The notes beneath the pieces are model-generated. The model made no database searches. It was not told the DNA's origin and was given only the letters and a program-made list of their open reading frames with translations. From Aromatoleum anaerobium (GTDB taxonomy: Bacteria; Pseudomonadota; Gammaproteobacteria; Burkholderiales; Rhodocyclaceae), in assembly GCF_012910705.2 (NCBI RefSeq), contig NZ_WTVG02000039.1, positions 496,001-560,000 on the forward strand: a stretch of DNA of 64,000 nucleotides, in the 5' to 3' direction. Shown piece after piece: positions 2 to 53,466 of this stretch; the stretch's first letter is position 1, and each line of letters starts with the position of its first letter. Both the position numbers and the translations under genes were made by a program.

Positions 2-73
2 CGTCAGGGCCGCGTCATCGACCACGATTCGGCCGCCTCCATGGAACGCAAGAAGCAGGAAGGATATTTCTGA
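2..73 (+). CDS. cysD: Sulfate adenylyltransferase subunit 2, C-terminal end (partial)
   Basis: Only the last 23 codons are in the window; the gene starts to the left. The readable tail, [19 protein letters not shown] followed by EGYF and a stop, matches the end of the complete CysD at 44906-45805 almost residue for residue. CysD is the PP-loop ATP pyrophosphatase subunit of ATP sulfurylase and makes adenylylsulfate (APS) with the GTPase CysN. The stop at 71-73 lies one base before the ATG of cysNC, so the two are translationally coupled, as in the second copy. The N-terminal part cannot be judged, so I cannot say whether this copy also carries the helix-turn-helix extension seen at 43817. Confidence 0.9.
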
Positions 74-74
74 C

Positions 75-1982
75 ATGGCACATATCTCCGACCTCATCGC
101 CACCGACATCGAGCAGTACCTGAAGGCGCACGAAACGAAGAGCCTGCTGCGCTTCATCACCTGCGGCAGCGTCGACGACGGCAAGAGCACGCTGATCGGG
201 CGCCTCCTCTACGAATCGAAGATGCTCTTCGAGGACCAGCTCGCCGCCGTCGAAGCCGACTCCAAGAAGTACGGCACGCAGGGCGATGCAATCGACTTCG
301 CGCTGCTCGTGGACGGCCTCGCCGCCGAGCGCGAGCAGGGCATCACGATCGACGTCGCCTATCGCTTCTTCTCGACGGACAAGCGCAAGTTCATCGTCGC
401 CGACACGCCGGGCCACGAGCAATACACGCGCAACATGGTCACCGGCGCCTCGACCGCCGACGCCGCCATCCTGATGGTCGACGCGCGCAAGGGCATCCTC
501 ACCCAGACCCGGCGCCACAGCTACCTGATCAGTCTGCTGGGCATCCGCCACGTCGTGGTGGCCGTCAACAAGATGGATCTGGTCGATTATTCGGAGAAGG
601 TCTACCGCCAGATCGTCCAGGACTACCGCGTGTTCGCCGCCCAGCTCGGGCTCGCCGACGTGACCTTCATCCCGATGTCGGCGTTCAAGGGCGACAACAT
701 CACGGGCCCGAGCGAGGCGATGCCTTGGTATCGCGGCACCACGCTGATGGGCTACCTCGAAACGGTGGAGGTGGACGACACCCGCATGCAGCGCACTCCC
801 TTCCGCCTGCCGGTGCAGTGGGTGAACCGCCCGAACCTCGACTTCCGCGGCTTTGCCGGCACGGTCGCCAGCGGCGTCATCGCGGCGGGAGATCGCATCC
901 GCATACAGCCCTCCGGCAAGGAGAGCACCGTCGCGCGCATCGTCACCCGTGACGGCGACCTGGAGCGCGCGGTTGCGGGGCAGTCGGTCACGCTGACCCT
1001 CGCCGACGAGGTCGACATTTCGCGCGGCGACGTGATCTCCACGGTGGAGGCGCCGGCCGAGGTGGCCGACCAGTTCGAATGCACGATCACCTGGATGCAC
1101 GACGAGCCCATGCTCGCCGGTCGCCCCTACCTGCTGAAGATCGGCGCAAAGACGGTCACCGCGACCGTCACAGACATCAAGTATCAGGTGAACGTGAATA
1201 CGCTCGAACACGTCGCAGCGAAGACGCTCGAGCTCAACGCGATCGGCGTGTGCAACCTCAGCCTCGACCGTCCCGTCGCCTTCGACCCCCATCGAGACAA
1301 CCGCGACACCGGCGGCTTCATCCTGATCGACCGGCTGTCGAACAGCACCGTCGGCGCGGGCCTGCTGCACTTCGCGCTGCGCCGCGCGCACAACATCCAC
1401 CTGCAGCACATCGACGTGGACAAGGCTGCGCGCGCGGCGCTCAAGCATCAGAAGAGCTGCATGCTGTGGTTCACCGGTCTGTCCGGCGCGGGCAAGTCCT
1501 CGATCGCCAACCTGGTCGAAAAGAAGTTGCACGCGCTCGGCCACCATACCTACCTGCTCGACGGCGACAACGTGCGCCACGGCCTGAACAAGGACCTGGG
1601 TTTCACCGATGCCGACCGCGTCGAGAACATCCGCCGCGTGGCCGAAGTCGCCAAACTGATGGTCGATGCCGGACTGGTCGTGCTGACGGCCTTCATCTCC
1701 CCGTTCCGCTCCGAGCGGCAGATGGCACGCGCCTTGGTCGACGAAGGCGAATTCGTCGAGATCTTCGTCGACACGCCGCTGGAGGTCGCCGAGCAGCGCG
1801 ACGTCAAGGGCCTGTACAAGAAAGCCCGGCGCGGCGAGCTGAAGAACTTCACCGGCATCGACTCGCCTTACGAGGCCCCCGAGAACGCCGAGATCCGACT
1901 TGAAACGACGCGCCTGTCGCTGGAGGCGGCCGCCGAGGCCGTGATCGCCGCGCTGCGCCAGCGCGGAATCATCTCCAACTGA
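75..1982 (+). CDS. cysNC: Bifunctional sulfate adenylyltransferase GTPase subunit / APS kinase (CysNC), copy 1
   Basis: 635 aa, cytoplasmic. The N-terminal three quarters is the CysN GTPase: P-loop GSVDDGKST at residues 31-39, DTPGH at 110-114 and NKMD at 165-168, then EF-Tu-like barrel domains. The C-terminal quarter is an APS kinase with its own P-loop GLSGAGKSS at 468-476 and the motif DGDNVRHGL. With CysD it converts sulfate and ATP to APS and then phosphorylates APS to PAPS, the sulfuryl donor. It starts at 75, one base after cysD. cysQ follows, and the nearby sulfotransferase at 4730 is a likely consumer of PAPS. It is clearly diverged from the second CysNC at 45805, so the two are old paralogues rather than a recent duplication. 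Confidence 0.96.
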
Positions 1983-1988
1983 CATCCC

Positions 1989-2010
1989 GCCGGCCCCGCG
2001 CGGGGCCGGC
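1989..2010. repeat. Perfect 22-bp GC palindrome between cysNC and cysQ
   Basis: The 22 bases are fully self-complementary, with arms of 11 bp and no spacer. They lie seven bases after the cysNC stop. There is no T-tract, so this is not a classical terminator. In RNA it could form a hairpin that protects the 3' end or lowers cysQ expression; as DNA it could be a protein-binding site. Confidence 0.5.
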
Positions 2011-2039
2011 CACCCCGTACCTCAACGGAAGGAAGAATC

Positions 2040-2828
2040 ATGAACGCGACATCCGATCACCGCAGCCTGCTCGACGCCCTGCTCCCGGTCGCACGCAGCG
2101 CGGGCGCTGCCATCATGCAGATCTACGCGACCGACTTTGCCGTGCGCGGCAAGACCGACGCCTCGCCCGTCACCGAAGCGGACGAACGGGCCGAGGCCCT
2201 GATCCTGCCCGAGCTCGCCCGGCTCACCCCCGACATCCCGGTGGTGTCGGAGGAAGAAGCCTCCGCCGGGCACATTCCGGCCGTGGGCGAGCGCTTCTGG
2301 CTCGTCGACCCGCTGGACGGCACGAAGGAGTTCATCAACCGCAACGGCGAGTTCACCGTAAACATTGCCCTCGTCGAACACGGCGCGCCGGTGCTGGGCG
2401 TCGTGTTCGCGCCGGCCCTCGACCGCCTGTTCGCCGGCGCGGCCGGACTGGGGGCCTTCACCGAGGACAGCGGCGCACGGCGCAGCATCGCCGCCCGCAC
2501 GCCGCCCGCCGAAGGGCTGACTGTGGTCGCCAGCCGCTCGCACGGCGACGTCGAGGCGCTCGCCGCCTTCCTCGCCGGGCGCAAGGTCGCCCGCCAGACC
2601 AACGCCGGCTCCTCGCTCAAGCTGTGCCTCGTGGCCGCGGGCGAGGCGGACGTCTATCCGCGCCTGGGGCGCACGATGGAATGGGACATTGCAGCCGGCG
2701 ATGCGGTGCTGCGCGCGGCCGGCGGCATCGTTCGCATGCTGGACGGCCCGGCCCTGCACTACGGCAAGCCCGATTTCGCGAACCCGCACTTCGCCGCCTG
2801 GGGCGCGAGTTCGGCAAGCGGAGCGTAA
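2040..2828 (+). CDS. cysQ: 3'(2'),5'-bisphosphate nucleotidase CysQ, copy 1
   Basis: 262 aa, inositol-monophosphatase fold. The Mg2+-binding residues are visible: EE at 71-72, DPLDGT at 90-95 and the late Asp at 216 in WDIAAGD. CysQ hydrolyses PAP, the by-product of every sulfotransferase turnover, to AMP and phosphate, and so relieves product inhibition. It is downstream of cysNC with a good ribosome site (GGAAGGA just before the ATG). It is related to the second CysQ at 42995 (for example both have DPLDGTKEFI and NGEFTVNIAL) but clearly diverged. Pairing with PAPS synthesis and a sulfotransferase argues that PAP is produced in quantity here. Confidence 0.94.
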   Translation: MNATSDHRSLLDALLPVARSAGAAIMQIYATDFAVRGKTDASPVTEADERAEALILPELARLTPDIPVVSEEEASAGHIPAVGERFWLVDPLDGTKEFINRNGEFTVNIALVEHGAPVLGVVFAPALDRLFAGAAGLGAFTEDSGARRSIAARTPPAEGLTVVASRSHGDVEALAAFLAGRKVARQTNAGSSLKLCLVAAGEADVYPRLGRTMEWDIAAGDAVLRAAGGIVRMLDGPALHYGKPDFANPHFAAWGASSASGA

Positions 2829-2996: not shown

Positions 2997-3659
2997 ATGG
3001 CTACCAGTCACTCCCCTCTTCGTCGCAGCCCCACCCAGTCGCGCGCAGCAGCCACGCTGAAAGCCATTCGCGAGGCCACCCTGCGCATCCTGAAGGAGGA
3101 AGGCCATGCGCGCCTGACCACCAACCGGATCGCCGAAGTCGCGGGCATCAGCATCGGCAGCCTGTATCAGTACTACGCCGACAAGCACGCGATCGCGGCC
3201 GACATCTGCAACGAGCTGCTGATGTCCGAGCTCGACGAGATCAAGCGCCTCGACCGCCAGACCATCGCCCTCGCCAAGGATTCCCTGGATTCGACGCTGG
3301 CCTTCTTCGTCGAGGAGCACGTCGCACGGCACCGCCGGCTGTACCAGCAGCTACAGGACTTCTATCTCGAGATCCACTGGAAATACGACTTCGAGTCCTA
3401 CTCGCGGAAACGCTATCCGGACAAGCCGACCACGACCGACTGGCTGCCTTCGGCGTTGCGACGCCACCAGCAGGTGCTTCGCGTCACCGATTACGCGCTC
3501 GCCGCCCAGATGGTCGTGCATGCCCTGGAAGGCACGATCCACACCACCCTTGACCGCAACCCGGACCTGATCATGACGCAGGCCTTCATCGACGAACTGC
3601 ACGCGATGCTCGTCCGCTACCTCACGAAAGTGCCCGCCGAAGGCACCTCGAACGAATAG
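2997..3659 (+). CDS. TetR/AcrR-family transcriptional regulator
   Basis: 220 aa. The N-terminal helix-turn-helix is at about residues 40-65 (LTTNRIAEVAGISIGSLYQY), followed by an alpha-helical ligand-binding domain of the usual length. The ligand cannot be read from sequence; the neighbours suggest a substrate or CoA thioester of this cluster. Before the insertion sequence arrived, the gene ended immediately upstream of the sulfotransferase ribosome site, so it probably led or belonged to that operon. Its present TAG stop borrows the first G of the insertion sequence; the pre-insertion stop would have been TAA, so the protein is unchanged. It is the only conventional regulator in the window. 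Confidence 0.9.
   Translation: MATSHSPLRRSPTQSRAAATLKAIREATLRILKEEGHARLTTNRIAEVAGISIGSLYQYYADKHAIAADICNELLMSELDEIKRLDRQTIALAKDSLDSTLAFFVEEHVARHRRLYQQLQDFYLEIHWKYDFESYSRKRYPDKPTTTDWLPSALRRHQQVLRVTDYALAAQMVVHALEGTIHTTLDRNPDLIMTQAFIDELHAMLVRYLTKVPAEGTSNE
3651..3658. repeat. Left target-site duplication of the IS1595-type element
   Basis: The octamer AACGAATA directly precedes the left inverted repeat and is repeated at 4711-4718 directly after the right one. An 8-bp duplication is typical of the IS1595 family. It covers the last codons of the tetR gene. Confidence 0.93.
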
Positions 3660-3673
3660 GCTATGTCACCGTT
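3659..3673 (+). repeat. Left terminal inverted repeat of the IS1595-type element
   Basis: 15 bp, exact complement of 4696-4710. Confidence 0.93.
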
Positions 3674-3739
3674 AGCTGTGGAACCCTCCCGTGGCGGTCG
3701 GGCTCTTACCTCTGAGAGCGAAACCGCGCGGGGTGCCCC

Positions 3740-4708
3740 ATGAAAGCTCATGAATTTGAACGGTGGATCGAGCAGCTGCGGGCGTTGACCCGGCGGCAGC
3801 GCGAACAGGTGAAAGCGTTGCTGGCAAAAGACGATGACGGGGCGCGGTGCAGCACGCTGATCGAATCCCGCCTGGGTGGGGACGGGGGCTGTCCCCACTG
3901 TGGGGCGAAGAGTTTGTATCGGCACGGCCTCGCGGGCGGGCTGCAACGTTACCGGTGCAGAAGTTGCCACAAGACGTTCAACGCTCTCACCGGCACGCCA
4001 TTGGCGAGGTTGCGTAAAAGGGAGAAATGGTTGGCTTACGGCCAGGCGATGCTCGATTCGCTGACGGTGCGCAAAGCGGCAGCGGTGCTTGGCGTGCACC
4101 GGAACACGACTTTTCGTTGGCGCCATCGCTTCCTCACGTGGGCGAAGAACGACCGCCCGGCACATCTGCAAGGTATTACCGAAGCGGACGAAACGTATCT
4201 CCTCGAGTCGGACAAAGGCAGTCGCCGACTGGCTCGCAAGCCGCGCAAACGCGGCGGCGCTGCAACCCAGCGCGGCCTCTCCAACGAGCAGGTCTGCGTT
4301 CTCGTCGCCCGCGATCGCACGGGGCAGACCCTCGATTTCGTCACCGGCAAGGGGCAGATCACCAAGGCTCAACTCAAGACGGTTCTGCCGCCCGTTCTTG
4401 ATCCGGATGCGCTGTTGGTGAGTGACGGGAATCCGACCTATCGCTACTTCGCGCTCGATACCGGACTCTCCCATGAGGCGGTCAATTTGAGCGCCGGCAT
4501 CCGGGTCCGGGGCGCCTACCACGTCCAGAACGTCAATGCTTACCACAGCCGTCTCCACGCCTGGCTCGGCATCTTCCATGGTGTCGCCACAAAGTACCTC
4601 CCAAACTACTTGGGCTGGCGCCGCGCCTTGGATGCTCAGCGTATTCGCTCCCCGGATACCCTGCTGGCAGCCGCATTGGGGCAATTTCAACAGCGAACGG
4701 TGACATAG
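3740..4708 (+). CDS. IS1595-family transposase
   Basis: 322 aa. The N-terminus carries a zinc ribbon (CPHCG near residue 50 and CRSCH near 75), followed by a helix-turn-helix region (RKAAAVLGVHRNTTFRWRH) and an RNase-H-like catalytic domain. Two acidic residues stand out, in EADETYL and LVSDGNPTY; the third position falls in HVQNVNAYHSRLHAWL, where Asn/His replaces the usual Glu, a variation I recall in this family. The stop codon lies inside the right inverted repeat. It acts on the element's own ends and has no link to the surrounding metabolism. Confidence 0.93.
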   Translation: MKAHEFERWIEQLRALTRRQREQVKALLAKDDDGARCSTLIESRLGGDGGCPHCGAKSLYRHGLAGGLQRYRCRSCHKTFNALTGTPLARLRKREKWLAYGQAMLDSLTVRKAAAVLGVHRNTTFRWRHRFLTWAKNDRPAHLQGITEADETYLLESDKGSRRLARKPRKRGGAATQRGLSNEQVCVLVARDRTGQTLDFVTGKGQITKAQLKTVLPPVLDPDALLVSDGNPTYRYFALDTGLSHEAVNLSAGIRVRGAYHVQNVNAYHSRLHAWLGIFHGVATKYLPNYLGWRRALDAQRIRSPDTLLAAALGQFQQRTVT

Positions 4709-4710
4709 CC
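4696..4710 (-). repeat. Right terminal inverted repeat of the IS1595-type element
   Basis: 15 bp, exact complement of 3659-3673. It contains the transposase stop codon. Confidence 0.93.
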
Positions 4711-4729: not shown

Positions 4730-5914
4730 TTGTTCTACTACTTCGATTTCACTGTCTGGTTCAAGCTGCTGCGCCTGGTGGGTCAGGAGTCGAACCGGCG
4801 CCAGCGGCGCGGGCTCTACAAGCTGCTGCTGCTGCACATTCCCCTGCGCGCGACGATCACCGTGGTGTGCTTCTTCCTCGACGGCATCCTCTTCCCCAGG
4901 CTGTGGCTCACGCGGGTGAAGACACCGGTCTTCATCATCGGCCATGCCCGTAGCGGCACCACGCTGGCGCACCGCCTGATGACCGCCGACAAGCGCTTCT
5001 CGGCCTTCAGGTATTACGAACTGCTGCTGCCCTCGCTCGTGCAGAAGAAGCTCGTGCGCCTGATCGCGTGGGTCGACGCGCATCTCCTCGGCCGCACGCT
5101 CGAACGCAGGCTGCAGGCCTGGGAGAAGCGCAAATTCGGCCCCACCCAGCACATCCACAAGATGGGCCTGACGATCCCGGAAGAAGACGACCTGATGTAC
5201 TTCAACTCGTGCGCGTCGGGCTTCTGGCTGACCAAGCTGCCCTACATGAGCGAGCTGGACTTCTTCCACATCGACCGCCGCCCGGCCGCGAGCCGCCGGC
5301 GGATGATGAAGTTCTACCGCGAGTGCGTGCGCCGCCAGCTCTATCTCAACGGCAGCGATAGCATCCACCTCAGCAAGAACCCGACCTACTGCGGCCGCGT
5401 CGAGTCGCTGATCGAGACCTTCCCGGATGCACGCTTCGTCGTCCTTTACCGCAATCCGTACGAGACCATCCCCAGCCTGCTCAAACTGCTGAACGTGGGA
5501 TGGAAGCTGCAGGGCAACCTGTCGCAGGAGCGCATCCGCGAGTCCAACGAGGTCATGACCGGGCTGTCATACGAGACCTACCTCTACCCCCTCGAAGTGC
5601 TCCGCCGCCATCCCGAAACCCCCTGCGCAGTCATCGACTACCGGCGGCTCACCGCCGACCCCAAGGGCACGATTGAGGACGTGTATCGCGAGCTTGGCCT
5701 CGACATCACGCCGGACTATGCCGCTTTCCTCGATGCCGAGTCCGCCCGCAACAAGCGCCACGAGACCGAACACCGCTACAGCCTCGCCGAGTTCGGCCTC
5801 GACGACCGCGAGATCCGGCAGCGCCTCGCGCCCCTGTTCGAAAAATTCCGCTGGGACGAGGACGTCCCCGCCACCCACAACGACGACAAGAAGAAGGAGC
5901 CGGCCCATGCATGA
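4730..5914 (+). CDS. PAPS-dependent sulfotransferase 1 (Sulfotransfer_3 type)
   Basis: 394 aa. A 5'-phosphosulfate loop GHARSGTT is at residues 71-78 and a 3'-phosphate-binding segment, LYRNPYETIPSLL, begins near 239. Both are hallmarks of enzymes moving the sulfuryl group of PAPS onto an acceptor. A hydrophobic stretch at about 35-60 suggests membrane association, fitting a lipophilic acceptor. The start is TTG at 4730, chosen because AAGGAG lies 6 bases upstream and no ATG fits. The stop overlaps the next gene by 8 bp. Co-location with cysD-cysNC-cysQ supports PAPS use; the acceptor is unknown, with an alcohol on a sterol or terpenoid as an inference from the neighbourhood. Confidence 0.87.
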   Translation: MFYYFDFTVWFKLLRLVGQESNRRQRRGLYKLLLLHIPLRATITVVCFFLDGILFPRLWLTRVKTPVFIIGHARSGTTLAHRLMTADKRFSAFRYYELLLPSLVQKKLVRLIAWVDAHLLGRTLERRLQAWEKRKFGPTQHIHKMGLTIPEEDDLMYFNSCASGFWLTKLPYMSELDFFHIDRRPAASRRRMMKFYRECVRRQLYLNGSDSIHLSKNPTYCGRVESLIETFPDARFVVLYRNPYETIPSLLKLLNVGWKLQGNLSQERIRESNEVMTGLSYETYLYPLEVLRRHPETPCAVIDYRRLTADPKGTIEDVYRELGLDITPDYAAFLDAESARNKRHETEHRYSLAEFGLDDREIRQRLAPLFEKFRWDEDVPATHNDDKKKEPAHA

Positions 5915-7358
5915 ACCCAACCCCCTGCACGACGAAGTGTTCGCCGCAGTGAAGGCGCACGTCGAACCGCGCGACGCCGCCACCCGCGACGCCGCCTCCC
6001 TGCTACGCGAGGCCTGGGATGGCATGATCGCGCAGCTCGAGGACGCGCGTAACGCGATCGACGACCCCAAGCTGTGGCCCCCGCCAGCCACCCCGCGCAA
6101 CCTCGCCGAGGGCTACCGCTACGTGCTCGGCTTCCTGTACGGCTCGATCTCACGCTGCCTCGGCCCGACGCCCGAGTTCCCCTACTTCGTGCGCGCGATC
6201 CAGCCGCTCAACCGCTCGACCATCGACAACTGCGACGCGATCTACCTGATGGCGCCGATCGACGGCAACCACAGCTACACGATCCGCGGGCGCGCCGGCG
6301 ACACCAGCGCTTGGCGCGGCGAGCAGGCGCCGGCCGGCGTGCGCAAGGCGCCGCACTACGTGATCTTCGAGGCGCCCAGCGGCTACTCCGGCGAAAGCGG
6401 CAGCCTCAAGGAGCTCAAGCCCGGTTCGCGCATCAACTGCGCCGAGCTCGACAGCACCGAACTGAAGGTCGAGCCCGACGGCAGCTTCGAGATCCTGCTC
6501 GCCCCCGAAAAGCCGCCCGGTTACGAAGGGAACTTCATGCTCCCGCGCGCCAGCCGCACCCGCACCCACAAGGACGGCAGCAGCGAGACGCGCGAATACG
6601 TCAGCCAGCTCGTGATGCTGCGCGAGCTCTTCAGCGACTGGGAAAACGAGGATCTCCTCGAACTCTTCATCTACCGCAACGACCTGCTCGGCAAGCCGAT
6701 GCCGCCCTACACGCCGGAAGTCGCGGCGAAGCAGATCGCCGACGTCGGCCGCTTCACGCGCAACCAGGTGCACTTCTGGAACGAGTTCTACGCCGTCGTG
6801 TGCGAGTGCTACGGCGACATGAACGGCGACGACCGCTGCTTCATGCCACGCAACGCGTTCAACACGCCCAATGCGGCCTCGCTCGCGACCGCGGGTGGGA
6901 TGGCCACCAACGTGTATTGCGGCGGCATGTTCGAACTTGCGCCCGACGAGGCCCTGGTGGTCGAGCTCCACCAGCCGGTGGATCCGGTGTATATCGGCTT
7001 CAGCCTCGGCAACATGTGGGGCGAGTCGCTCGACTTCGCCAACTACCAGAGCAGCCTCGGCGGCCTGCAGGCCCACCGCGACGCCGACAACGTGTACCGC
7101 TTCGTGATCGCGCACAGCGATCCCGGCATCGCCAACTGGCTCGACACCACCGGCCAGCCCGAGGGCTACATGGCCGTGCGCTGGGCGTATCCCGTCAAAC
7201 CCAAGGACAACCTCCCCTGGGCGACGGGGAAGAAAGTACCTCTCGCCGACGTGCGCCAGCACCTGCCGGCGGACACCCGCCTGATCACCGCCGAGGAACG
7301 CCGGCATCAGATCGCAATCCGGCAGGAGCACGTCCAGCGCCGTTACCGCCAGCACTGA
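5907..7358 (+). CDS. DUF1214-family protein 1
   Basis: 483 aa, no known reaction. The start at 5907 follows AAGGAG (5894-5899) and overlaps the sulfotransferase end, so the two are translationally coupled. The C-terminal part has the DUF1214-type fold signature (acidic DEALVVELHQP, then GFSLGNMWGESLDF and SDPGIANWLDTTG). A shorter relative at 48741 shares the same blocks and again lies beside a sulfotransferase. I see no signal peptide or membrane segment. The repeated pairing suggests it handles the sulfated or to-be-sulfated compound, but that is inference from gene order. Confidence 0.8.
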   Translation: MHEPNPLHDEVFAAVKAHVEPRDAATRDAASLLREAWDGMIAQLEDARNAIDDPKLWPPPATPRNLAEGYRYVLGFLYGSISRCLGPTPEFPYFVRAIQPLNRSTIDNCDAIYLMAPIDGNHSYTIRGRAGDTSAWRGEQAPAGVRKAPHYVIFEAPSGYSGESGSLKELKPGSRINCAELDSTELKVEPDGSFEILLAPEKPPGYEGNFMLPRASRTRTHKDGSSETREYVSQLVMLRELFSDWENEDLLELFIYRNDLLGKPMPPYTPEVAAKQIADVGRFTRNQVHFWNEFYAVVCECYGDMNGDDRCFMPRNAFNTPNAASLATAGGMATNVYCGGMFELAPDEALVVELHQPVDPVYIGFSLGNMWGESLDFANYQSSLGGLQAHRDADNVYRFVIAHSDPGIANWLDTTGQPEGYMAVRWAYPVKPKDNLPWATGKKVPLADVRQHLPADTRLITAEERRHQIAIRQEHVQRRYRQH

Positions 7359-7371: not shown

Positions 7372-8661
7372 ATGCCCGATACCCTGAAGGACAAGGTGGC
7401 GATCGTCACCGGTGCGAGCCGCGGCATCGGTGCGGCCATTGCCGAGCGCTTCGCGGCCGAGGGCGCGAAGGTCGTCCTCGTCGCCCGCACGATTGAACCC
7501 GGCGGCAAGCTGCCCGGCTCGCTCGACGAGACCGCGGCACGCATCCGCACCCGAGGTGGCGACTGCCTGTGCGTGCAGGCCGATCTCGCCAGCGAGGCGG
7601 ACCGGGAGCGCATCGTCGCCGACACCATCGCCCGCTACGGCGGCGTCGACATCCTCGTGAACAACGCCGCCTGGGCACGTTTCGGCGCCGGCTACACCCA
7701 GCCGCCCCAGCGCGTGCAGCTCGCCTATGCGGTCAACCTCTTTGCGCCCCATCATCTGGCGCAGCTCGTCATCGCATCGATGAAGGCGCGCGGCGGCGGC
7801 TGGATCCTGAACCTGTCGAGCGCCACCAGCGAGGTTCCCGGCCCCGCGCCCTACACGCCGGACGACCGCGCCTTCCGCTTCCACACCACGCACTCGCCCA
7901 CGCTCTACGGCTCGACCAAGGCGGCTCTCGAACGTCTCAGCGCCGGCATGGCAATGGAACTCGCCGCCGACAACATCGCGGTGAATACGCTCGCCCCGGT
8001 CGAAGCGGTCGCCAGCGACGGGGCACTGAAGAGCGGCTCGATCGACGAGCTCGCCCAGATGGAGCCGATCGAGGCGATGGCCGAAGCCGCGCTCGCGCTG
8101 TGCTCCCGCCCGCAGTCCACCCTGTCCGGTCGCATCGTGCTAAGCCTGCCACTGCTGCGTGAACTCGCGGTCGAGGTGATGCGCCTCGACGGCACCGCGC
8201 CGCTGCCCGATTTCACCCTTGACCCCGCCCGTCCCGGAGCCCCCAATGTTCGAAATCTTCGCCTCCACGCCGGAACACCTCAACCTCGCCGACATCGGCC
8301 GCTTCGCGCAGCGCGTCGAAGCGATGGGTTACGACGGCCTGTTCGTGTCCGACGCGATCCACGACGGTCTGCTGCTCGCCTGCCAGGCGCTGTCCGCCAC
8401 CACCCGCCTGAAGGTCGGCACCTCGGTCCTGATCGTCTTCCCGCGCAGCCCGATGAACGTCGCGCTCGCGAGCTGGGATCTGCAGAAGATGTCCGGCGGG
8501 CGCTTCGAGCTCGGCATGGGCACCCAGATCAAGCAGAACATCGAGGATCGCTACTCTGCACGCTGGCTGCCCCCGGCGGCCGGCATGCGCGAATACGTCG
8601 GCGCCCTGCGCGCGATCTTTCACGCGTTCCGCACCGGCGAGCCGCTCGATTATGTCGGTGA
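7372..8661 (+). CDS. SDR-family dehydrogenase, reading frame open far into the next gene
   Basis: A classical short-chain dehydrogenase: TGASRGIG at residues 13-20, NNAA at 97-100, Ser149/150, and Tyr179 with Lys183 (YGSTK). It would oxidise or reduce a hydroxyl/ketone with NAD(P)(H). The recognisable domain ends near residue 280-285 (about 8220). Beyond that the frame stays open to 8661 and reads as Arg/Pro-rich sequence that is the out-of-frame image of the flavoprotein gene starting at 8246. A TGA in another frame at 8220-8222 sits just where a normal SDR would stop, so a one-base indel or sequencing error is likely. The functional part is probably 7372 to about 8222. Confidence 0.8.
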   Translation: MPDTLKDKVAIVTGASRGIGAAIAERFAAEGAKVVLVARTIEPGGKLPGSLDETAARIRTRGGDCLCVQADLASEADRERIVADTIARYGGVDILVNNAAWARFGAGYTQPPQRVQLAYAVNLFAPHHLAQLVIASMKARGGGWILNLSSATSEVPGPAPYTPDDRAFRFHTTHSPTLYGSTKAALERLSAGMAMELAADNIAVNTLAPVEAVASDGALKSGSIDELAQMEPIEAMAEAALALCSRPQSTLSGRIVLSLPLLRELAVEVMRLDGTAPLPDFTLDPARPGAPNVRNLRLHAGTPQPRRHRPLRAARRSDGLRRPVRVRRDPRRSAARLPGAVRHHPPEGRHLGPDRLPAQPDERRARELGSAEDVRRALRARHGHPDQAEHRGSLLCTLAAPGGRHARIRRRPARDLSRVPHRRAARLCR

Positions 8662-10527: not shown

Positions 10528-10540
10528 GGCAGCCGACTCC

Positions 10541-11746: not shown

Positions 11747-11766
11747 TGCCGCATCCTCATCTGTGC

Positions 11767-12936: not shown

Positions 12937-12957
12937 GGTTTGTCTCCTGCCGGCCGC

Positions 12958-14136: not shown

Positions 14137-14155
14137 AAGTGGCGTGCTCCGCGTA

Positions 14156-15680: not shown

Positions 15681-15692
15681 GAGACCGCTCCC

Positions 15693-45805: not shown

Positions 45806-47718
45806 TGGGACACGTATCCGAGCTGATTGCCGAGGACATCGAGCAATACCTGAAGGTGCACGAGCACAAGAATCTGCTGCGCTTCATCACCTGCGGCAGC
45901 GTCGATGATGGCAAGAGCACGCTGATCGGTCGCCTGCTGTACGAGTCGAAGTTGCTCTTCGAGGACCAGATGGAAGCGCTGGAGATCGACTCGAAGAAGG
46001 TCGGTACCCAGGGCGGCGAACTGGACTTCGCGCTGCTCCTCGACGGCTTGGCCGCCGAGCGCGAGCAAGGCATCACGATCGATGTGGCCTACCGCTTCTT
46101 TTCGACCGAAAGGCGCAAGTTCATCGTTGCCGACACCCCCGGCCATGAGCAGTACACGCGCAACATGATTACCGGCGCCTCGACCGCGGATGTCGCCGTC
46201 GTGATGATCGACGCGCGTCGCGGCGTGCTCACGCAGTCGAAGCGGCACAGCTTCCTCGCGTCGCTGATCGGCATCCGCAAGGTGGTGCTGGCGGTCAACA
46301 AGATGGACCTGATGGATTATTCGGAGAAGGTGTTCAGGACGATTGTCGACGACTACCGCGCCTTCGCGCGGCAGATCGGCCTCGAGGACATCACTCCGAT
46401 TCCGATGTCGGCGCTGCGCGGCGACAACATCACGACCCAGAGCGAACGGATGCCCTGGTACCGCGGCACGACGCTGATGGGCTATCTCGAAACCGTCGAA
46501 GTTGACGAGACGCGCCAGCAAAAGCTGCCGTTCCGCCTGCCGGTGCAGTGGGTCAATCGACCGAACCTCGATTTCCGCGGCTTTACCGGCACCATTGCCA
46601 GCGGCGTGATTCGCCCCGGCGACCGCATCCGTGTGCTCCCTGCAGGACGCGAGAGCCATGTCGCACGCATCGTCACGCTCGACGGAGATCTGCAGCAGGC
46701 GGTGGCCGGGCAGTCGGTCACGCTGACGCTCACCGACGAGGTCGACATCAGTCGCGGCGACGTCCTCGCGACCTCGGAGAACCCGGCCGGCGTCGCCGAT
46801 CAGTTCCAGACCACGATCGTGTGGATGCACGAACAGCCGATGCTCGGCGGCCGCCCTTACCTGATGAAGATCGGCGGCAAGACCGTCACCGCGACGCCGT
46901 CGGCTCCCAAACACAAGATCAACGTCAACACGATGGAGCATCTGGCGGCCAAGGAGCTCGCGCTCAACGAAATCGGCGTCGTCAACCTCGCGACCGACCA
47001 GTCGATTGCGTTTGACGCCTACCAGGACAATCGCGACACCGGCAGCTTCATCCTCATCGACCGTCTCAGCAACGCCACGGTCGGCGCCGGGATGATCGAG
47101 TTCGCGCTGCGCCGCTCGCAGAACATCCACATGCAGCACGTGGACGTGAACAAGAAGGCGCGGGCCGAACAGATGGGGCAAAAGCCGGTGCTGCTGTGGT
47201 TTACCGGGCTGTCCGGCGCGGGCAAGTCGGCAATCGCGAACCTGCTGGAGACACGTCTGTATGCGCGCGGCCGGCACACCTATCTGCTCGACGGTGACAA
47301 CGTGCGGCACGGCCTCAATCGCGATCTCGGCTTCACCGACGCCGATCGCGTCGAGAACATCCGCCGCGTGGCCGAAGTCGCGAAGCTGATGGTGGACGCC
47401 GGCCTGATCATCATCACCGCCTTCATCTCGCCGTTCCGCGCCGAGCGCCAGATGGCGCGCAGCCTCGTGGCCGAAGGCGAGTTCATCGAGGTGTTCATCG
47501 ACACGCCGCTCGCGGTGGCCGAGGAACGTGATCCCAAGGGCCTGTACAAGAAGGTTCGTCGCGGCGAGCTGAAAAATTTCACCGGAATCGACTCGCCTTA
47601 CGAGGTGCCGACGAATCCTGACATCCACATCGAGACGACGAAGCTGACGGCCGAGGGAGCGGTCGATCGCATCCTCGACGTGCTGATCGAACGGGGCGTC
47701 ATCGGCAAGGACTTGTGA
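45805..47718 (+). CDS. cysNC: Bifunctional sulfate adenylyltransferase GTPase subunit / APS kinase (CysNC), copy 2
   Basis: 637 aa. Same architecture as copy 1: GTPase P-loop GSVDDGKST at 31-39, DTPGH, NKMD, and APS kinase P-loop GLSGAGKSA at 468-476. It makes PAPS. Many substitutions separate it from copy 1, especially in the linker and C-terminus. It is followed by a TauE-type permease and a sulfotransferase block, not by PAPS reductase or sulfite reductase genes. Confidence 0.96.
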
Positions 47719-47881: not shown

Positions 47882-48667
47882 TTGGATATCGGATTGAACG
47901 CGTTGGCAGGGCTCGTGGTTGGCATCATGGTGGGTGCCACCGGCGTCGGAGGCGGCGCGGTGATGACGCCGTTGCTGGTCCTGCTGATGGGCGTCGCCCC
48001 GAACACTGCCGTCGGAACGGATCTGATCTTTGCATCGGTGACGAAGGCGTTCGGCGTCGGCGCCCATCACGCGAAAGGGCGGGTCGATTGGCAGGTCGTA
48101 CGCCGCCTCGCCGCGGGGAGTCTCCCTGCCGCGATTGCGACCCTGATCTGGCTGCAGTCGATGGAATCGGCCGGAGACCGGCACGGGCTCATCGTGGCCG
48201 CCCTCGGCGCCGTTCTCTTGTTCACTGCCGTTGCGATGGCGTCAAAGCCGTTCTTGGCAAAGCTCGGCAAACAGCGGCGGCTCGCGGACCCGACCCGCTT
48301 CAAGAAATATCAGCGGCCGCTCACGGTATTCGCAGGCATTGCCCTCGGCTTTCTCGTCACGCTGACATCGATCGGCGCCGGGGCGCTCGGGGCGGTCATG
48401 CTCCTGTTCCTTTACCCGCTGAGACTCACCCCCGCAAAGCTGGTCGCGACCGATCTGGCTCACGCGATACCCCTCGCGCTGGTCGCGGGCGCGGGCCATC
48501 TCCTCATCGGCAACGTCGACTTCGTGCTGCTCGGCCAACTCCTGCTCGGATCCCTCCCGGGCGTCTGGATCGGCTCTCACCTGGGCGGCAAGTTGCCCGA
48601 CAACGTCCTGCGGCTCTGCATTGCGCTCGTACTCGGCGGCGTTGGCATGAGGCTGGTCAGCACATGA
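47882..48667 (+). CDS. TauE/SafE-family sulfite/sulfate-type permease
   Basis: 261 aa, strongly hydrophobic with about eight membrane helices in two similar halves; the glycine-rich GLVVGIMVGATGVGGGAVMTPLL at the start is typical. Start TTG at 47882, supported by GAGGAGG four bases upstream; no ATG fits. Family members move sulfite, sulfate, sulfonates or related anions. Lying between PAPS synthesis and sulfotransferase genes, it may bring in sulfate for activation or release sulfate or sulfite set free from the sulfated intermediate. The direction cannot be inferred from sequence. Confidence 0.87.
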   Translation: MDIGLNALAGLVVGIMVGATGVGGGAVMTPLLVLLMGVAPNTAVGTDLIFASVTKAFGVGAHHAKGRVDWQVVRRLAAGSLPAAIATLIWLQSMESAGDRHGLIVAALGAVLLFTAVAMASKPFLAKLGKQRRLADPTRFKKYQRPLTVFAGIALGFLVTLTSIGAGALGAVMLLFLYPLRLTPAKLVATDLAHAIPLALVAGAGHLLIGNVDFVLLGQLLLGSLPGVWIGSHLGGKLPDNVLRLCIALVLGGVGMRLVST

Positions 48668-48740: not shown

Positions 48741-49850
48741 ATGACATCAGACCCGATCGACGAACACCTGCTGAGCGGCCGGACCTGGGCCGATTTCTGC
48801 GATCACTTGAAGCGCTGCGGCGAGCAGATCCTGCGTCCGGAGGCGCCGGCGGACCTGCAGACGCGCGCCGAAGGTTACCGCTACCTGACGCGCTTGCTGC
48901 GCATCGGCCTCGAGATGCACATCGAGTTCGCCGACCCGGCGCACCCGGGGTTCTTCAAGACGTCCCACGAAACCGCGAAGATCGGCGCCGACAACCCGGA
49001 CAATCTCTACGAGTATTCGCGTCTCGATGGACGGCACGAATACCGCATCAGCGGGCACCGGGGCTCGGTGGCGTATCTGAGCTTCGGCACGCAGAAAGGT
49101 GGTTATGAAACCGACGGCACGCTGATCCAGACCGGCTTCATCGACGCGAGCCGACTGCAGGTCGAAGCCGACGGCAGCTTCGAGATCTGGCTGAGTCGGA
49201 CGCCCCGGCCCAGCAACTGGTTGCCGATGGAAGAGGCGACGAACTCGGTGATCGTGCGCCAGACCTTCCTCGACCGCAAAAACGAACAGCCGGCCAAGCT
49301 GCATATCGAGCGCGTCGGCACCGTCGAGCCGCCGGCCGCGCTGGACCCTCATGTTCTGCACCGGGCCCTCGGACGGGTCGGCAGCTTCGTCGAGAACACG
49401 GCGCGCCTGTTCGCCGACTGGGCGGCCAGTTACCAGCCGAATACGAACCAGCTGCCGCCGGCCGATCAGGCGCTGTGCCAGGCGGTGGGCGGAGATCCGA
49501 ACATTTTCTATTACCACTCCAGCTGGGCGCTGAACGACGACGAGGCGCTGGTGATCGAGGTCGAGAAGGTGCCGGAGTGCGACTTCTGGAACCTGCAGAT
49601 CAACAACTACTGGATGGAATCGCTGGACTACCGCCATCACCGCATCTGCATCAACAAGCACGCCGCGCGTTACGACGAGCGCGGGGGCGTGACGCTGATC
49701 CTCAGCCGTCAGGACCCCGGCCATCCCAACTGGCTGCAAACCGCCGGACTCAGGCAAGGGACGATGTGCCTGCGCTGGGTCGGCGCCCGACAGTACTGCC
49801 ATCCCACCACCCGCGTAGTGAAAGTCACCGATCTCCAGGAGGCCCGATGA
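48741..49850 (+). CDS. DUF1214-family protein 2
   Basis: 369 aa, shorter relative of the protein at 5907 (shared pattern EGYRYL, VEADGSFEIWLS, DDEALVIEVEKVP, WNLQINNYWMESLDY, SRQDPGHPNWLQT). No signal peptide. Start at 48741 (MTSDPIDE). It overlaps the following SnoaL gene by 4 bp. In both sulfotransferase modules a DUF1214 protein is present, next to the sulfotransferase in one and one gene away in the other. Function unknown. Confidence 0.8.
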   Translation: MTSDPIDEHLLSGRTWADFCDHLKRCGEQILRPEAPADLQTRAEGYRYLTRLLRIGLEMHIEFADPAHPGFFKTSHETAKIGADNPDNLYEYSRLDGRHEYRISGHRGSVAYLSFGTQKGGYETDGTLIQTGFIDASRLQVEADGSFEIWLSRTPRPSNWLPMEEATNSVIVRQTFLDRKNEQPAKLHIERVGTVEPPAALDPHVLHRALGRVGSFVENTARLFADWAASYQPNTNQLPPADQALCQAVGGDPNIFYYHSSWALNDDEALVIEVEKVPECDFWNLQINNYWMESLDYRHHRICINKHAARYDERGGVTLILSRQDPGHPNWLQTAGLRQGTMCLRWVGARQYCHPTTRVVKVTDLQEAR

Positions 49851-50440
49851 ACACGCCCGCCCATACCCCCGTACTCGGTGTCGACAGCCCGCAAGCCGAC
49901 GATCTGGCGCAGCAGATCAGGGCGTTGCAGGCCGAGGTGCAGGCGCTGAAGGACATCGAGGAAATCCGCCGCCTCAAGTACGCGTACTTCCGTGGCATCG
50001 ACAGTGCGGATCTCGAGCTGCTGCGCGAGGTGATGCATCCCGACATCACCGCGCATCTCGTCGGCGGCGGCTACGAATGGAAGCTCGCCGGGCGCGACCA
50101 GTACCTCGAAGCCATCGGCAACGGCTTCAACAGCGAGGTCATCGCGCAGCACAACGGCCACCACCCCGAGATCCGTCTCGTCAGCCCGACCGAGGCCGAA
50201 GGCACGTGGTACCTGCACGACAACTTCTACAACCTGCGCGAAAAGCTCTTCACGACCGGCACCGCGTTCTATCACGACCGCTACGTCAGGGTGGACGGCA
50301 AGTGGCTGCTGCGCAGCACCGGATACAGGCGTCATTACGAGTTCGTCGAGAAAATCGACAGGATGCCGAACATCACCGCCCATTACCTCGCCCAGCACGG
50401 CCGCAAGGTGAAAACCACCGATCCTCAGGAGACCCGATGA
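49847..50440 (+). CDS. Cytoplasmic SnoaL-like (NTF2-fold) protein
   Basis: 197 aa. A short helix (IRALQAEVQALKDIEEIRRL) precedes an NTF2/SnoaL domain. It is close to identical in many blocks to the exported protein at 36907 but has no signal peptide. It overlaps both neighbours by 4 bp (ATGA), so it is translated together with DUF1214 and the sulfotransferase. NTF2-fold proteins often act as isomerases, dehydratases or binding proteins on cyclic substrates; no catalytic residue can be named here. Confidence 0.85.
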   Translation: MNTPAHTPVLGVDSPQADDLAQQIRALQAEVQALKDIEEIRRLKYAYFRGIDSADLELLREVMHPDITAHLVGGGYEWKLAGRDQYLEAIGNGFNSEVIAQHNGHHPEIRLVSPTEAEGTWYLHDNFYNLREKLFTTGTAFYHDRYVRVDGKWLLRSTGYRRHYEFVEKIDRMPNITAHYLAQHGRKVKTTDPQETR

Positions 50441-51627
50441 ACATGCCCGCCCCGACCCCCGCACTCAGCGTGGAGAACCTGCTCGAGTGCGCCAGCGCCG
50501 CCGCCGGCGGCTTGCGCAACTTCGGCTCGGACAACTACCGCGAAGCGCTCGGGGTGCTGCTCGCGGCCCTGGCCGAGGAGGCCTGCCTGTCGCCCCAGGG
50601 GCAGCAAATGCTGCACGACAAGCTGGTGTCCCAGTTGGTCAACCGCCTCGTGATGGAGGACTACCTCGCCCGCCATCCCGAAATCCTGCAGCAGCCGATC
50701 GAGGATCCGCTCGTGATCGTCGGCCTGCCGCGCACCGGCACGACGATGCTGCAGCGCACGCTGGCGGTCGACCCCCGGCTGTATTCGGCTGCTTGGTGGG
50801 AAACCCGCTATCCGGCGCCGCTCGAGGGCGAGAGCTTGGCCGAGCCGCGCCGACGCCTCGAGCTCGCGTGCGCCGAGGTCGAGATGATGCGGCAGGTCAT
50901 TCCGCAGATCCTCGCGATCCACCCGCTGGACGCGATGCTCGCCGACGAGGAATTCATGCTCATGGAGCACTCGTTCATGTGCGCGATGGATGCGTACGTC
51001 AATGTGCCAAGCTACACCCGCTGGCTCGACGGGCAGGACCAGCGTCCGGTGTACATGCAGCTCAAGAAGATGCTGCAGTTCCTGCAGTGGCAAAAGACCC
51101 GGCGAGGCGTTCCCGCCGCGCAGCGCTGGCTGCTCAAGGCCCCGCAGCATCTGCACACCCTGGAGCTGCTGCTCGAGGTGTTCCCGAAGGCGCAGATCAT
51201 CCTGACCCACCGCGACCCGGCCAAGACGATTCCGTCGATGGCCAGCATGGCCCACACGCTGTGGCAGATGTACAGCGACGAGCCCGATCCGAGGGTCGTC
51301 GGCGAGCAGTGGAACAGCCGCATGGCGCGGGCGATCCGGCATGCGATGCAGGTGCGCGATCAGACAGCGCCGGAGCGCTTTCTCGACATCCGTTTCGAGG
51401 ACACCGTGCGCAACCCGCTCGGCGTGCTGGAGGCGGTGTATGCGTTTGCCGGCATACCGTTCACCGAGGAGGTCCGCGGCGCGATGCAGCAGTGGCTCGC
51501 GAACAACACGCGGGAGACGCGCGCCGCGCACGATTACAGCCTCGAGCGCTTCGGCCTCAGCGAGCAGCAGATGGAGCGCGATTACGCCGACTACCGCCGG
51601 CGTCATATCGCCGAAGCCGCGGCCTGA
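50437..51627 (+). CDS. PAPS-dependent sulfotransferase 2
   Basis: 396 aa. 5'-phosphosulfate loop GLPRTGTT at residues 96-103 and 3'-phosphate segment LTHRDPAKTIPS at 256-267, with Arg259. It has no N-terminal hydrophobic segment and a different N-terminal domain from sulfotransferase 1, so it belongs to another subfamily and probably has another acceptor. It overlaps the SnoaL gene by 4 bp. The second cysD-cysNC pair lies upstream on the same strand, a direct PAPS supply. Confidence 0.88.
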   Translation: MNMPAPTPALSVENLLECASAAAGGLRNFGSDNYREALGVLLAALAEEACLSPQGQQMLHDKLVSQLVNRLVMEDYLARHPEILQQPIEDPLVIVGLPRTGTTMLQRTLAVDPRLYSAAWWETRYPAPLEGESLAEPRRRLELACAEVEMMRQVIPQILAIHPLDAMLADEEFMLMEHSFMCAMDAYVNVPSYTRWLDGQDQRPVYMQLKKMLQFLQWQKTRRGVPAAQRWLLKAPQHLHTLELLLEVFPKAQIILTHRDPAKTIPSMASMAHTLWQMYSDEPDPRVVGEQWNSRMARAIRHAMQVRDQTAPERFLDIRFEDTVRNPLGVLEAVYAFAGIPFTEEVRGAMQQWLANNTRETRAAHDYSLERFGLSEQQMERDYADYRRRHIAEAAA

Positions 51628-51685
51628 CGGCATGCCTCGGCACCCGAAGTCCCATAGCCAGAAGCCATAACAGGAGACAACAACC

Positions 51686-52141
51686 ATGCTGGACCTCGAA
51701 GCCATCGAGCGCATCAAGCAGCTCAAGGCCCGCTATCTACGGGCGATCGACACCTGCAACATCGAAATGCTGCGGGGCATCCTCACCGAGGACGTCGTGC
51801 TGTCGTTCAAGAGCCCGGCGTACGAGCACCGTGTCAGCGGTCTGGACGCGGCGCTCGACTTCTACCGCGCGTCCTTCACCCCTACCCGGCTCGCGATGCA
51901 CAACGGCCACACGCCGGAAATCGAGGTCCACGGCGACGAAGCCAGCGGCCTGTGGTACCTGAACTACGTGTTCATCAACCTCGAGGACAAGACCCACCTC
52001 AACGGCGCCGCGATCTACGAGGACCGCTACGTCAAGGTCGACGGCGAGTGGCGCATTGCCCGCACCGGCTACACCACGCTGCTCGAAACCATCGAACCGC
52101 TGCGCGAGAGCCTGCAGATCATCTCGAAGCCGATCAACTGA
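51686..52141 (+). CDS. SnoaL-like (NTF2-fold) protein
   Basis: 151 aa. Begins with IERIKQLKARYLRAIDTCN and contains HNGHTPEIEVHG and YEDRYVKVDGEWRIARTGY, typical for SnoaL_4-type domains. It is a more distant relative of 49847 and 36907. AGGAGA precedes the ATG. It is the third NTF2-fold protein associated with these blocks; role unknown. Confidence 0.83.
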   Translation: MLDLEAIERIKQLKARYLRAIDTCNIEMLRGILTEDVVLSFKSPAYEHRVSGLDAALDFYRASFTPTRLAMHNGHTPEIEVHGDEASGLWYLNYVFINLEDKTHLNGAAIYEDRYVKVDGEWRIARTGYTTLLETIEPLRESLQIISKPIN

Positions 52142-52170
52142 GCCACCACCGCGATTTCAGGGAGCCAGCT

Positions 52171-52656
52171 ATGGCGAAAGCAGAAAATATCGTGACCTCG
52201 ATCACCGTCGAGATCGATGTGCCGGCGGCGCTCGTCTGGGAAGTGCTCACCGACCTGCCCAACTACGCGACCTGGAACAGCTTCTGCCCCGGCATCGAGT
52301 CGACGCTGCGGATCGGCGATCCGGTGCGGATGCAGGTCCGGGTGCCGGGAACCGACAGGACGGAGCCGGTCCACGAGTACCTCGTGGCCTTCGAGCCCGA
52401 ACAGTTGCTTTCCTGGGAACAGTACCCGGTGCCGGAGAACAAGGATGCCGCGCGCCGTGACCAGTACATCCAGGCCCTGGGGCCGAACCGTTGCAGCTAC
52501 TTCACCACCGACATCTTCCTCGGCGTCAACGCCGACAAGATCATGGCCGAGCACGGCGCGTGGGTGAAGGAAGGTTTCGACAACGTCGCCCGCGACCTTA
52601 AACGCTATGCCGAGGCGCTCTACACCCGGCGGGCCCGAATCGAGCCCGCCCAATAA
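52171..52656 (+). CDS. SRPBCC (START-like) domain protein
   Basis: 161 aa. The polyketide-cyclase/START-like pattern is clear: ITVEIDVPAALVWEVLTDLPNYATWN at the N-terminus and WVKEGFDNVARDLKRYAE as the C-terminal helix. This fold makes a deep hydrophobic cavity and binds lipids or cyclic compounds. The preceding GGGAG supports the start. In this operon it may bind a hydrophobic substrate or sulfate ester. Confidence 0.82.
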   Translation: MAKAENIVTSITVEIDVPAALVWEVLTDLPNYATWNSFCPGIESTLRIGDPVRMQVRVPGTDRTEPVHEYLVAFEPEQLLSWEQYPVPENKDAARRDQYIQALGPNRCSYFTTDIFLGVNADKIMAEHGAWVKEGFDNVARDLKRYAEALYTRRARIEPAQ

Positions 52657-52677
52657 CCACAGGAAGGACAACAACAG

Positions 52678-53466
52678 ATGCTGCTCAAAGACAAAGTCGT
52701 GATCGTTTCCGGTATCGGTCCCGGACTCGGCGTGAAGATGGCCGTTCTGGCCGCCCAGGAGGGGGCCAAGGGCGTGGTCCTGGCCGCGCGCACCGCCGCC
52801 AAGCTGGACGACGCCGAACGCGCGATCCGCGAGGCCGACCTGGCGACCCCCGTGCTCAAGCTGCCGACCGACATCAGCCGCAAGGGCGATTGCGAACGCC
52901 TCGCGGCGCAAACGGTAGAGCGCTTCGGACAGATCGACGCGCTGATCAACTCGGCCTATCTGCACGATTTCGGACCGGTCGAAAGCTCCGATATGGACGA
53001 CTGGCGCCGGCTGATGGAGGTCAATCTCTACGGCAGCATGAACATGACCTATGCCGTGCTGCCGCAGATGAAGCGGCAGCGCAGCGGCAGCATCGTCATG
53101 GTCAACACGATGGCCACGCGCAAGCCCTATTCACCGGAAGCCGGCTATGCGGTTTCGAAGGGCGCGCTGAGCACGGCCGCGCAGTACCTCGCGGGGGATC
53201 TCGGCCAATACGGCATTCGCGTCAATTCCACCTATATGGGATGGATGTGGGGCGCCTCGCTCAAGGACTACTTCGAGCGCCAGGCCAGCCAGTCGGGAGT
53301 CAGCGTCGAGTCGCTGAAAGCCGAGTTGGCCAAGGACATTCCGCTGCGGGAAATCCCGGAAGACGGGGAATGCGCCAAGGCGGTCATCTTCCTCGCCTCC
53401 GATTACGCGAAGGTGATCACCGGCGCCCAGCTCGACGTCAACGGCGGCCACTTCCTGCCGTACTGA
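52678..53466 (+). CDS. SDR-family dehydrogenase
   Basis: 262 aa. Cofactor loop SGIGPGLG at 11-18, NSAY at 91-94 in place of the usual NNAG, and Tyr157-Lys161 (YAVSK). The catalytic Ser position appears to be Thr144 (VNTMA). It is the last gene of the second sulfotransferase block and the counterpart of the SDR at 7372 in the first. Oxidation of a hydroxyl before or after sulfation is plausible. Confidence 0.88.
   Translation: MLLKDKVVIVSGIGPGLGVKMAVLAAQEGAKGVVLAARTAAKLDDAERAIREADLATPVLKLPTDISRKGDCERLAAQTVERFGQIDALINSAYLHDFGPVESSDMDDWRRLMEVNLYGSMNMTYAVLPQMKRQRSGSIVMVNTMATRKPYSPEAGYAVSKGALSTAAQYLAGDLGQYGIRVNSTYMGWMWGASLKDYFERQASQSGVSVESLKAELAKDIPLREIPEDGECAKAVIFLASDYAKVITGAQLDVNGGHFLPY

Follow-up and report, generated by a model that had tools for sequence, protein, structure and literature searches.

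A stretch of 64,000 nucleotides of the Aromatoleum anaerobium genome (contig C13, positions 496001-560000; the genome comprises 4.56 Mb in 40 contigs), referred to here as the window, carries two gene runs in which genes for the synthesis of 3'-phosphoadenosine-5'-phosphosulfate (PAPS) stand together with a sulfotransferase (ST) gene. Module 1 lies at the left end and module 2 in the right part, and the two flank a steroid-catabolic region (Table 1). Both gene runs, which a preliminary description had named, were recovered in profile scans. CysD, CysNC and CysQ1, which represent PAPS supply, exceed the NCBIfam cut-offs. Both sulfotransferases exceed the cut-off of the Sulfotransfer_3 profile and contain a P-loop-like motif (PRTGTT / ARSGTT). 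ST1 and ST2 are 23% identical. The closest solved structures of ST2 are PDB entries 2z6v and 2zq5; the sulfotransferase of CurM is matched weakly (5.6e-4).

Module 1 is interrupted by an insertion sequence (IS) of the IS1595 type, which was missing from the preliminary account. The element occurs at four places in the genome at 100% identity, including the window copy; one of these is partial. It parts tetR from ST1 and has broken neither frame. Module 1 therefore formed a single co-directional run before the insertion. DUF1214a can be aligned with DUF1214b and with the ST-linked relatives. The open reading frame of the short-chain dehydrogenase/reductase SDR1 continues for about 140 codons beyond the family match and overlaps the gene of a luciferase-like monooxygenase (LLM); a frame change or a lost stop codon is possible. 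Two F420-type LLM enzymes are encoded in the window.

Table 1. Features of the window and their coordinates.
Feature	Position	Strand	Remarks
cysD1 3' end, plain CysD	1..73	+	gene begins at C13:495174, 827 bases left of the window
cysNC1, ATP sulfurylase large subunit fused to adenosine 5'-phosphosulfate (APS) kinase	75..1982	+	NF004035 1073.9 bits, cut-off 715
cysQ1, 3'-phosphoadenosine-5'-phosphate (PAP) phosphatase	2040..2828	+	TIGR01331 293 bits, cut-off 228.8
TetR-type regulator	2997..3659	+	TetR_N, TetR_C_15 above cut-off
IS1595-type insertion	3659..4710		25-bp inverted repeats, 8-bp target duplication
ST1, sulfotransferase	4730..5914	+	Sulfotransfer_3 93.9 bits, cut-off 27
DUF1214-like protein a (DUF1214a)	5907..7358	+	22.8 bits, under Pfam cut-off 25
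SDR1	7372..8661	+	family similarity stops near residue 270
F420-dependent-type LLM oxidoreductase	8246..9283	+	TIGR03617 343 bits, cut-off 278
Steroid side-chain type genes	9376..16649	-	acyl-CoA dehydrogenases, Ltp2-like aldolase, MaoC, ChsH2-like (Pfam)
Ltp2-like aldolase	12958..14136	-	PDB 6OK1 (Ltp2) 549 bits
FadD3-family acyl-CoA ligase	18445..20025	-	NF005801 750 bits, cut-off 657
3-ketosteroid 1-dehydrogenase-like (KstD-like) protein	20036..21745	-	PDB 7P18 718 bits; NCBIfam KstD models below cut-offs
SnoaL_4 protein closely similar to SnoaLa	36907..37581	+	
cysQ2, PAP phosphatase	42995..43768	-	Inositol_P 186.5 bits (Pfam only); cysQ cluster in 26 relatives
cysD2, CysD fusion	43889..45805	+	IS630-transposase-derived N-terminal domain, linker, CysD; 638 aa
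cysNC2	45805..47718	+	NF004035 1060.9 bits
TauE/SafE family permease	47927..48667	+	155 bits; in the flanks of 2/80 relatives
DUF1214b	48741..49850	+	43.3 bits, cut-off 25; PDB 6ANS 575 bits
SnoaLa, BaiE-like, SnoaL_4	49847..50440	+	BaiE top PDB match, 3.9e-25
ST2, sulfotransferase	50437..51627	+	Sulfotransfer_3 146.8 bits, cut-off 27
SnoaLb, BaiE-like, SnoaL_4	51686..52141	+	BaiE top PDB match, 5.2e-19
SRPBCC (polyketide cyclase/dehydrase) protein	52171..52656	+	Polyketide_cyc2 42.7 bits; 72/80 relatives
SDR2	52678..53466	+	Pfam match; 79/80 relatives
Major facilitator superfamily (MFS) protein	53601..54809		adjoins module 2
EthD-like protein	55217..55939	-	EthD 21.3 bits, cut-off 22; fold family of dehydratase Hsh3

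Conservation of the cassette in two lineages

The same gene block exists in other genomes. It was found around relatives of ST2 (63-75% identity) from Pseudomonas, Halopseudomonas, Comamonas, Pandoraea, Collimonas, Cupriavidus, Paraburkholderia and Burkholderia. In a comparison with 10 carrier genomes, the 16S sequence of the genome came closest to beta-proteobacteria (pieces from Cupriavidus, Collimonas and Comamonas, 85-91%). All counts refer to 80 of the 104 relatives found (the other 24 are not included) and to flanks of 10 kb around the ST gene; some loci end early at contig ends. The flanks contain DUF1214 and ST in 80 cases, SDR in 79, CysNC and CysD in 78 each, and SRPBCC in 72. DUF1214 is thus the most constant partner of the sulfotransferase, and the two genes are adjacent and co-directional with a gap of -30 to +60 nt in 80/80 loci. 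This grouping exceeds chance. Nine residues of DUF1214 (N85, D87, Y90, R173, E182, D296, N330, W331 and R345) are invariant in nine distant ST-linked members. The solved relative of DUF1214b, 6ANS, is uncharacterised, and the literature search yielded no relevant paper on DUF1214.

The loci fall into two lineages. Lineage A (26 loci) includes the type of module 2 and is characterized by the CysD fusion, CysQ (26), SnoaLb (25) and an EthD-like protein (21). The 52 loci of lineage B contain a plain CysD, a LuxR-type regulator (52) and a DHH-like protein (51; for example L045:12012-12992), which occurs in none of the lineage-A loci; CysQ is found in none of them, 19 encode a SnoaL protein of one kind or the other, and three encode an EthD-like protein. 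The one lineage-B locus without the DHH-like protein, L051, is an 8-kb contig. Across the 78 loci with CysD, CysQ and the DHH-like protein are mutually exclusive. The DHH-like protein matches DHH (0.022-0.034) and DHHA1 (0.0021), both below cut-off and in the right order, and the motif FDHH is invariant in eight of these proteins; a PDB search with its profile gave no match. It is a candidate for the replacement of the PAP phosphatase in lineage B. Dedicated PAPS supply is combined with PAP removal in 77/80 relatives (26 of lineage A and the 51 of lineage B with the DHH-like protein). Because two unrelated candidate PAP-removing enzymes swap between the lineages, the data suggest that PAPS is truly consumed by the cassette. 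A conserved block near GGCCTATGCG lies between cysQ and the cysD fusion (window positions 43769-43888, and in relatives); it is a possible operator.

Related genes also occur on plasmids. Of 29 plasmid records with a DUF1214b homologue, 26 recur in the list of records with an ST2 homologue, which shows 40 of 55; these records include several near-identical Sphingobium strains, and their annotation is incomplete. According to coordinates and opened stretches, the ST and DUF1214 homologues lie within about 10 kb of each other in at least nine records. PAPS genes were also present in four of the ten stretches opened and were not seen in the other six, where annotation is incomplete. The plasmid of Paraburkholderia sprentiae has the order DUF1214-ST-VOC-CysQ-CysD-CysN, and an ecdysteroid 22-kinase family gene lies near this cassette (L097 1360-2499). 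A Tsukamurella plasmid encodes CysC and CysD as well as a DUF1214-like protein, an SDR and an ST. For the plasmid of Novosphingobium KACC 22771, an unannotated record, PAPS genes were detected by tblastn. The Sphingomonas paeninsulae plasmid carries a second ST with PAPS genes and no annotated DUF1214 there. On a Prescottella plasmid DUF1214 is present and an ST is not annotated. Plasmid pSA2 of Novosphingobium resinovorum contains ST, DUF1214 and SDR together with F420 genes, like module 1.

Sulfate assimilation and the link to steroid catabolism

Neither module looks assimilatory. Profile PF01507 has five matches in the genome, namely CysD2, CysD1, a third CysD on contig C2, and CysH and CysD of contig C24; only CysD1 and CysD2 are encoded in or adjoining the window. 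A Pfam scan of 59 window proteins revealed neither a CysH-type protein nor a sulfite reductase, in line with the preliminary description. An assimilatory operon with the order TauE-cysI-DUF934-cysH-cysD-cysN is located on contig C24. The CysN of this operon lacks an APS-kinase domain, and its CysH contains the two Cys pairs that mark the APS-reductase type. Cysteine synthesis there therefore needs no PAPS, which supports the proposal that the PAPS of the modules is made for sulfation. The preliminary description had named cysH or cysI genes left of the window as evidence for assimilation; instead, F420-biosynthesis genes (CofE, CofD, CofC and FbiC-type; L091 13993-19080) directly adjoin cysD1 upstream. 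Genes for a SnoaL protein and for an old yellow enzyme resembling BaiCD (457 bits against a cut-off of 825) also lie left of cysD1. At a threshold of 1e-10, homologues of CysH and CysI are found in 0/80 flanks of the relatives, and the same holds for homologues of three sulfatase-family proteins of the own genome. The left flank, the C24 operon and the relatives rule out that the modules are one assimilation operon.

It could still be argued that duplicates of sulfate-assimilation genes landed next to sulfotransferases, since CysD and CysN are homologous to assimilatory proteins. However, the three CysNC of the genome are 73-82% identical among themselves and only 51-55% identical to the C24 CysN. 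Considering also the flanks of the relatives and an APS-type CysH that needs no APS kinase, this explanation is extremely improbable. The third cysD-cysNC pair (L093, C2:996000-1012000) is accompanied by a divergent cysQ, by a transporter matching CitMHS/Na_sulph_symp and by an 845-residue protein without a Pfam match. A sulfatase-family gene broken by frame changes lies 35 kb left of the window (C13:460442-461320, L114).

The steroid link of the preliminary description stands on two grounds. The window encodes KstD-, Ltp2-, ChsE- and FadD3-like proteins; the ChsE-type acyl-CoA dehydrogenases between 9376 and 16649 match PDB entries 6WY9 and 4X28. Furthermore, the cassette co-occurs with the oxygenase KshA. 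The own genome contains a KshA_C match of 207 bits at C13:408766, on the same contig as the window, and a search of 49 carrier genomes, which represent 49 of 50 loci chosen from the 80, found KshA in 49/49. The postulated oxygen-independent route is therefore not supported. As background, KshA is present in five and ST2 in two (the own genome and G295) of 399 genomes of the order, and both ST2 carriers have KshA. In 298 Pseudomonas genomes, KshA occurs in 51 and ST2 in 13, and 13/13 ST2 carriers possess KshA; the hypergeometric probability of this overlap is 2.6e-11 and rises to 1.5e-10 when the centre genome, itself picked as a carrier, is left out, with no unrelated accessory gene serving as control. 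A steroid-cluster gene lies within the 10-kb flanks of 33/80 loci (15 of lineage A, 18 of lineage B). Thus, the cassette tracks aerobic steroid degradation, and it is quite probable that sulfation serves the steroid pathway. Within the steroid region, positions 56104-60787 hold genes of the 2-oxoacid:acceptor oxidoreductase type together with an NAD(P)-type reductase.

Alternatively, the cassette might yield a sulfated end product such as a lipid, a signal or a secondary metabolite, the proximity to steroid genes being regulatory or historical. Sulfotransferases, SnoaL, SRPBCC and SDR proteins also belong to biosynthetic families, and distant homologues are found on cyanobacterial and Streptomyces plasmids, some of them annotated as polyketide synthase. 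The presence of KshA in every Pseudomonas carrier argues against this alternative. So does the KshA score class, which tracks the lineage: weak scores were assigned to 20/21 loci of lineage A and to 3/28 of lineage B, strong scores to 25/28 of lineage B, with a cut set after seeing the data and relatedness uncorrected. A sulfated end product is therefore rather improbable.

The transposase-derived domain of CysD2

For module 2, the preliminary description listed a cysD gene. CysD is indeed encoded there, but not as a plain protein: it is the C-terminal part of an in-frame fusion with an IS630-like domain. Over 296 aligned positions, residues 1-330 of CysD2 share 31% identity with the IS1471 transposase. 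In comparison with IS1471, the first catalytic acid of the DDE triad is kept and the second and third are replaced; at the second site, none of 17 aligned members has an acid. By this comparison, the domain is not expected to act as a functional IS630 transposase. All 26 relatives that have the fusion (among L006-L035) keep its reading frame open. Simple counting in 13 pairs gave dN/dS values of 0.06-0.33 for the domain in 12 pairs, one being undefined; in the same pairs, values were 0.22-0.87 for the linker and 0.01-0.07 for CysD. These values indicate purifying selection on the transposase-derived domain. The in-frame fusions and the dN/dS values overturn the idea that the N-terminus is a decaying IS remnant. 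CysD2 thus differs from its IS630/IS1471 relatives in the lost acids, the in-frame fusion to CysD and the selection acting on it. By eye, the long start and an internal ATG or GTG each have a Shine-Dalgarno-like sequence in front of them, and a second likely start of cysD2 with a Shine-Dalgarno sequence lies at 44906, whose product would be a plain CysD. One cysD2 gene may therefore yield two proteins. It is conjecture that the N-terminal domain binds DNA or acts in regulation.

Possible role of sulfation in steroid breakdown

Among solved structures, BaiE is the best match of both SnoaLa and SnoaLb, and both proteins retain Tyr30, Asp35 and His83 of BaiE. An EthD-like homologue is encoded directly 3' of the ST gene in 22/80 relatives; the window copy lies on the opposite strand. 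Like the window protein, those of L006 (18.8) and L020 (19.3) score below the EthD cut-off, whereas the L021 protein (37.3) scores above it. Judged by these matches, the lineage-A cassette tends to pair the sulfotransferase with two steroid-dehydratase families. According to the available parts of PMC12175502 and PMC13101464, BaiE, Hsh2 and SteC act as dehydratases of the SnoaL/NTF2 type, and Hsh3 belongs to the EthD proteins. BaiE, Hsh2 and SteC eliminate water from unsulfated substrates, unlike the role proposed below for SnoaLa and SnoaLb.

The best overall explanation, held tentatively and at somewhat less than even chance, is that a steroid-derived hydroxyl becomes ready for elimination once it is sulfated. 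CysD and CysNC would, as members of their families, convert sulfate and ATP to PAPS. The sulfotransferase would place the sulfo group on a hydroxyl of a steroid or steroid-derived intermediate, and CysQ, or the DHH-type protein in the second lineage, would clear PAP. SDRs would adjust the oxidation state. A SnoaL, EthD-like, SRPBCC or DUF1214 protein might then eliminate the sulfate ester to give an alkene; the elimination itself, the enzyme and the hydroxyl are all conjectural. F420-dependent or old yellow enzyme-type reductases could reduce the alkene, and the released sulfate would re-enter at CysD. For sulfate as the leaving group taken by itself, the chances are likewise slightly below even, and this function is ranked above solubilisation.

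Related chemistry is known. In CurM-type activation, sulfation is followed by elimination on a carrier-bound polyketide. CurM shares the logic of a sulfate leaving group; no polyketide synthase domain was seen among the window proteins scanned, and the match of ST2 to CurM is the weak one given above. Ester-activated dehydration of a steroid alcohol is known with phosphate: as far as the available part of PMC8449060 describes it, the 25-hydroxysteroid kinase of Sterolibacterium denitrificans activates a steroid hydroxyl for elimination by group transfer, as proposed here, but the system uses phosphate, is anaerobic, and its lyase is unknown.

Several observations weigh against activation for elimination. 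Tyr54 of BaiE is replaced by Leu or Phe in SnoaLa and SnoaLb, and Arg146 is kept in SnoaLa and replaced by Thr in SnoaLb. SnoaL proteins stand beside 46/80 relatives and are absent from 34/80, with 25/26 loci in lineage A versus 19/52 in lineage B; the EthD protein is distributed similarly (21 versus three loci). The case for elimination, already put forward in the preliminary description, is thus circumstantial: BaiE-like proteins beside the sulfotransferase support it and their absence from many relatives does not. No F420 genes were found in the flanks of the 80 relatives. The cassette is accessory, ST2 being missing from 38/51 KshA-positive Pseudomonas genomes, and no steroid marker of the chosen set lies within 10 kb in 47/80 loci. 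Finally, the TA441 pathway removes the C7 and C12 hydroxyls, and the available text of PMC13101464 contains no word starting with "sulf". The species of TA441 includes the carriers L020, L026 and L030. Because TA441 removes these two hydroxyls without a reported sulfotransferase, the target of sulfation is probably another hydroxyl.

The same proteins would be compatible with a bacterial phase-II conjugation. In that case, sulfation would serve to make steroid intermediates soluble, to detoxify them or to export them; the SnoaL and EthD proteins would act independently as dehydratases of unsulfated substrates, and the conjugate would be transported by TauE or the MFS protein. Genes for both transporters adjoin module 2, and Bacteroides makes and releases cholesterol sulfate by means of a PAPS-sulfotransferase cluster (PMC9417993, available part). 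This cluster, BT_0411-BT_0416, resembles the cassette in that PAPS-synthesis genes stand beside a steroid-acting sulfotransferase; it differs in its end product, cholesterol sulfate, and in belonging to a non-catabolic gut bacterium, and the available part names no DUF1214, SDR, SnoaL or PAP phosphatase. The likeness is judged by gene content. However, TauE is rare in the flanks of the relatives (Table 1), PAPS supply with PAP removal in nearly all of them suggests stoichiometric use, and genes of dehydratase type are interspersed with that of the sulfotransferase. Phase-II conjugation is thus considered unlikely.

The cassette is real, conserved and steroid-linked and, as far as the literature search shows, undescribed. 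No paper tying a sulfotransferase to bacterial steroid breakdown was found in this search, which mostly excluded subscription papers. Activation for elimination can be extended to a route by which aerobic steroid degraders would remove hydroxyls through sulfation. Hydroxyls that cannot leave directly would be sulfated from the dedicated PAPS supply and eliminated as sulfate by SnoaL, EthD or DUF1214 proteins, reduction would depend on F420 in module 1, and a domesticated transposase domain on CysD would link PAPS supply to cassette control. In this full form, the reading is less likely than not.

Bacterial small-molecule sulfation is usually regarded as conjugation or biosynthesis. Catabolic sulfation, if true, would add an activation chemistry to steroid breakdown and would give DUF1214, the constant partner of the sulfotransferase, a first testable role. 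The carriers of the cassette are environmental Pseudomonas, Comamonas, Cupriavidus, Paraburkholderia and Burkholderia, which makes it testable in tractable laboratory strains. CysD2 is an example of a transposase-derived domain that has been fused to a core enzyme of sulfur metabolism and retained by selection. The conserved cassette, which often stands beside relatives of steroid hydroxyl-removing enzymes, suggests an undescribed step in the dismantling of steroids.

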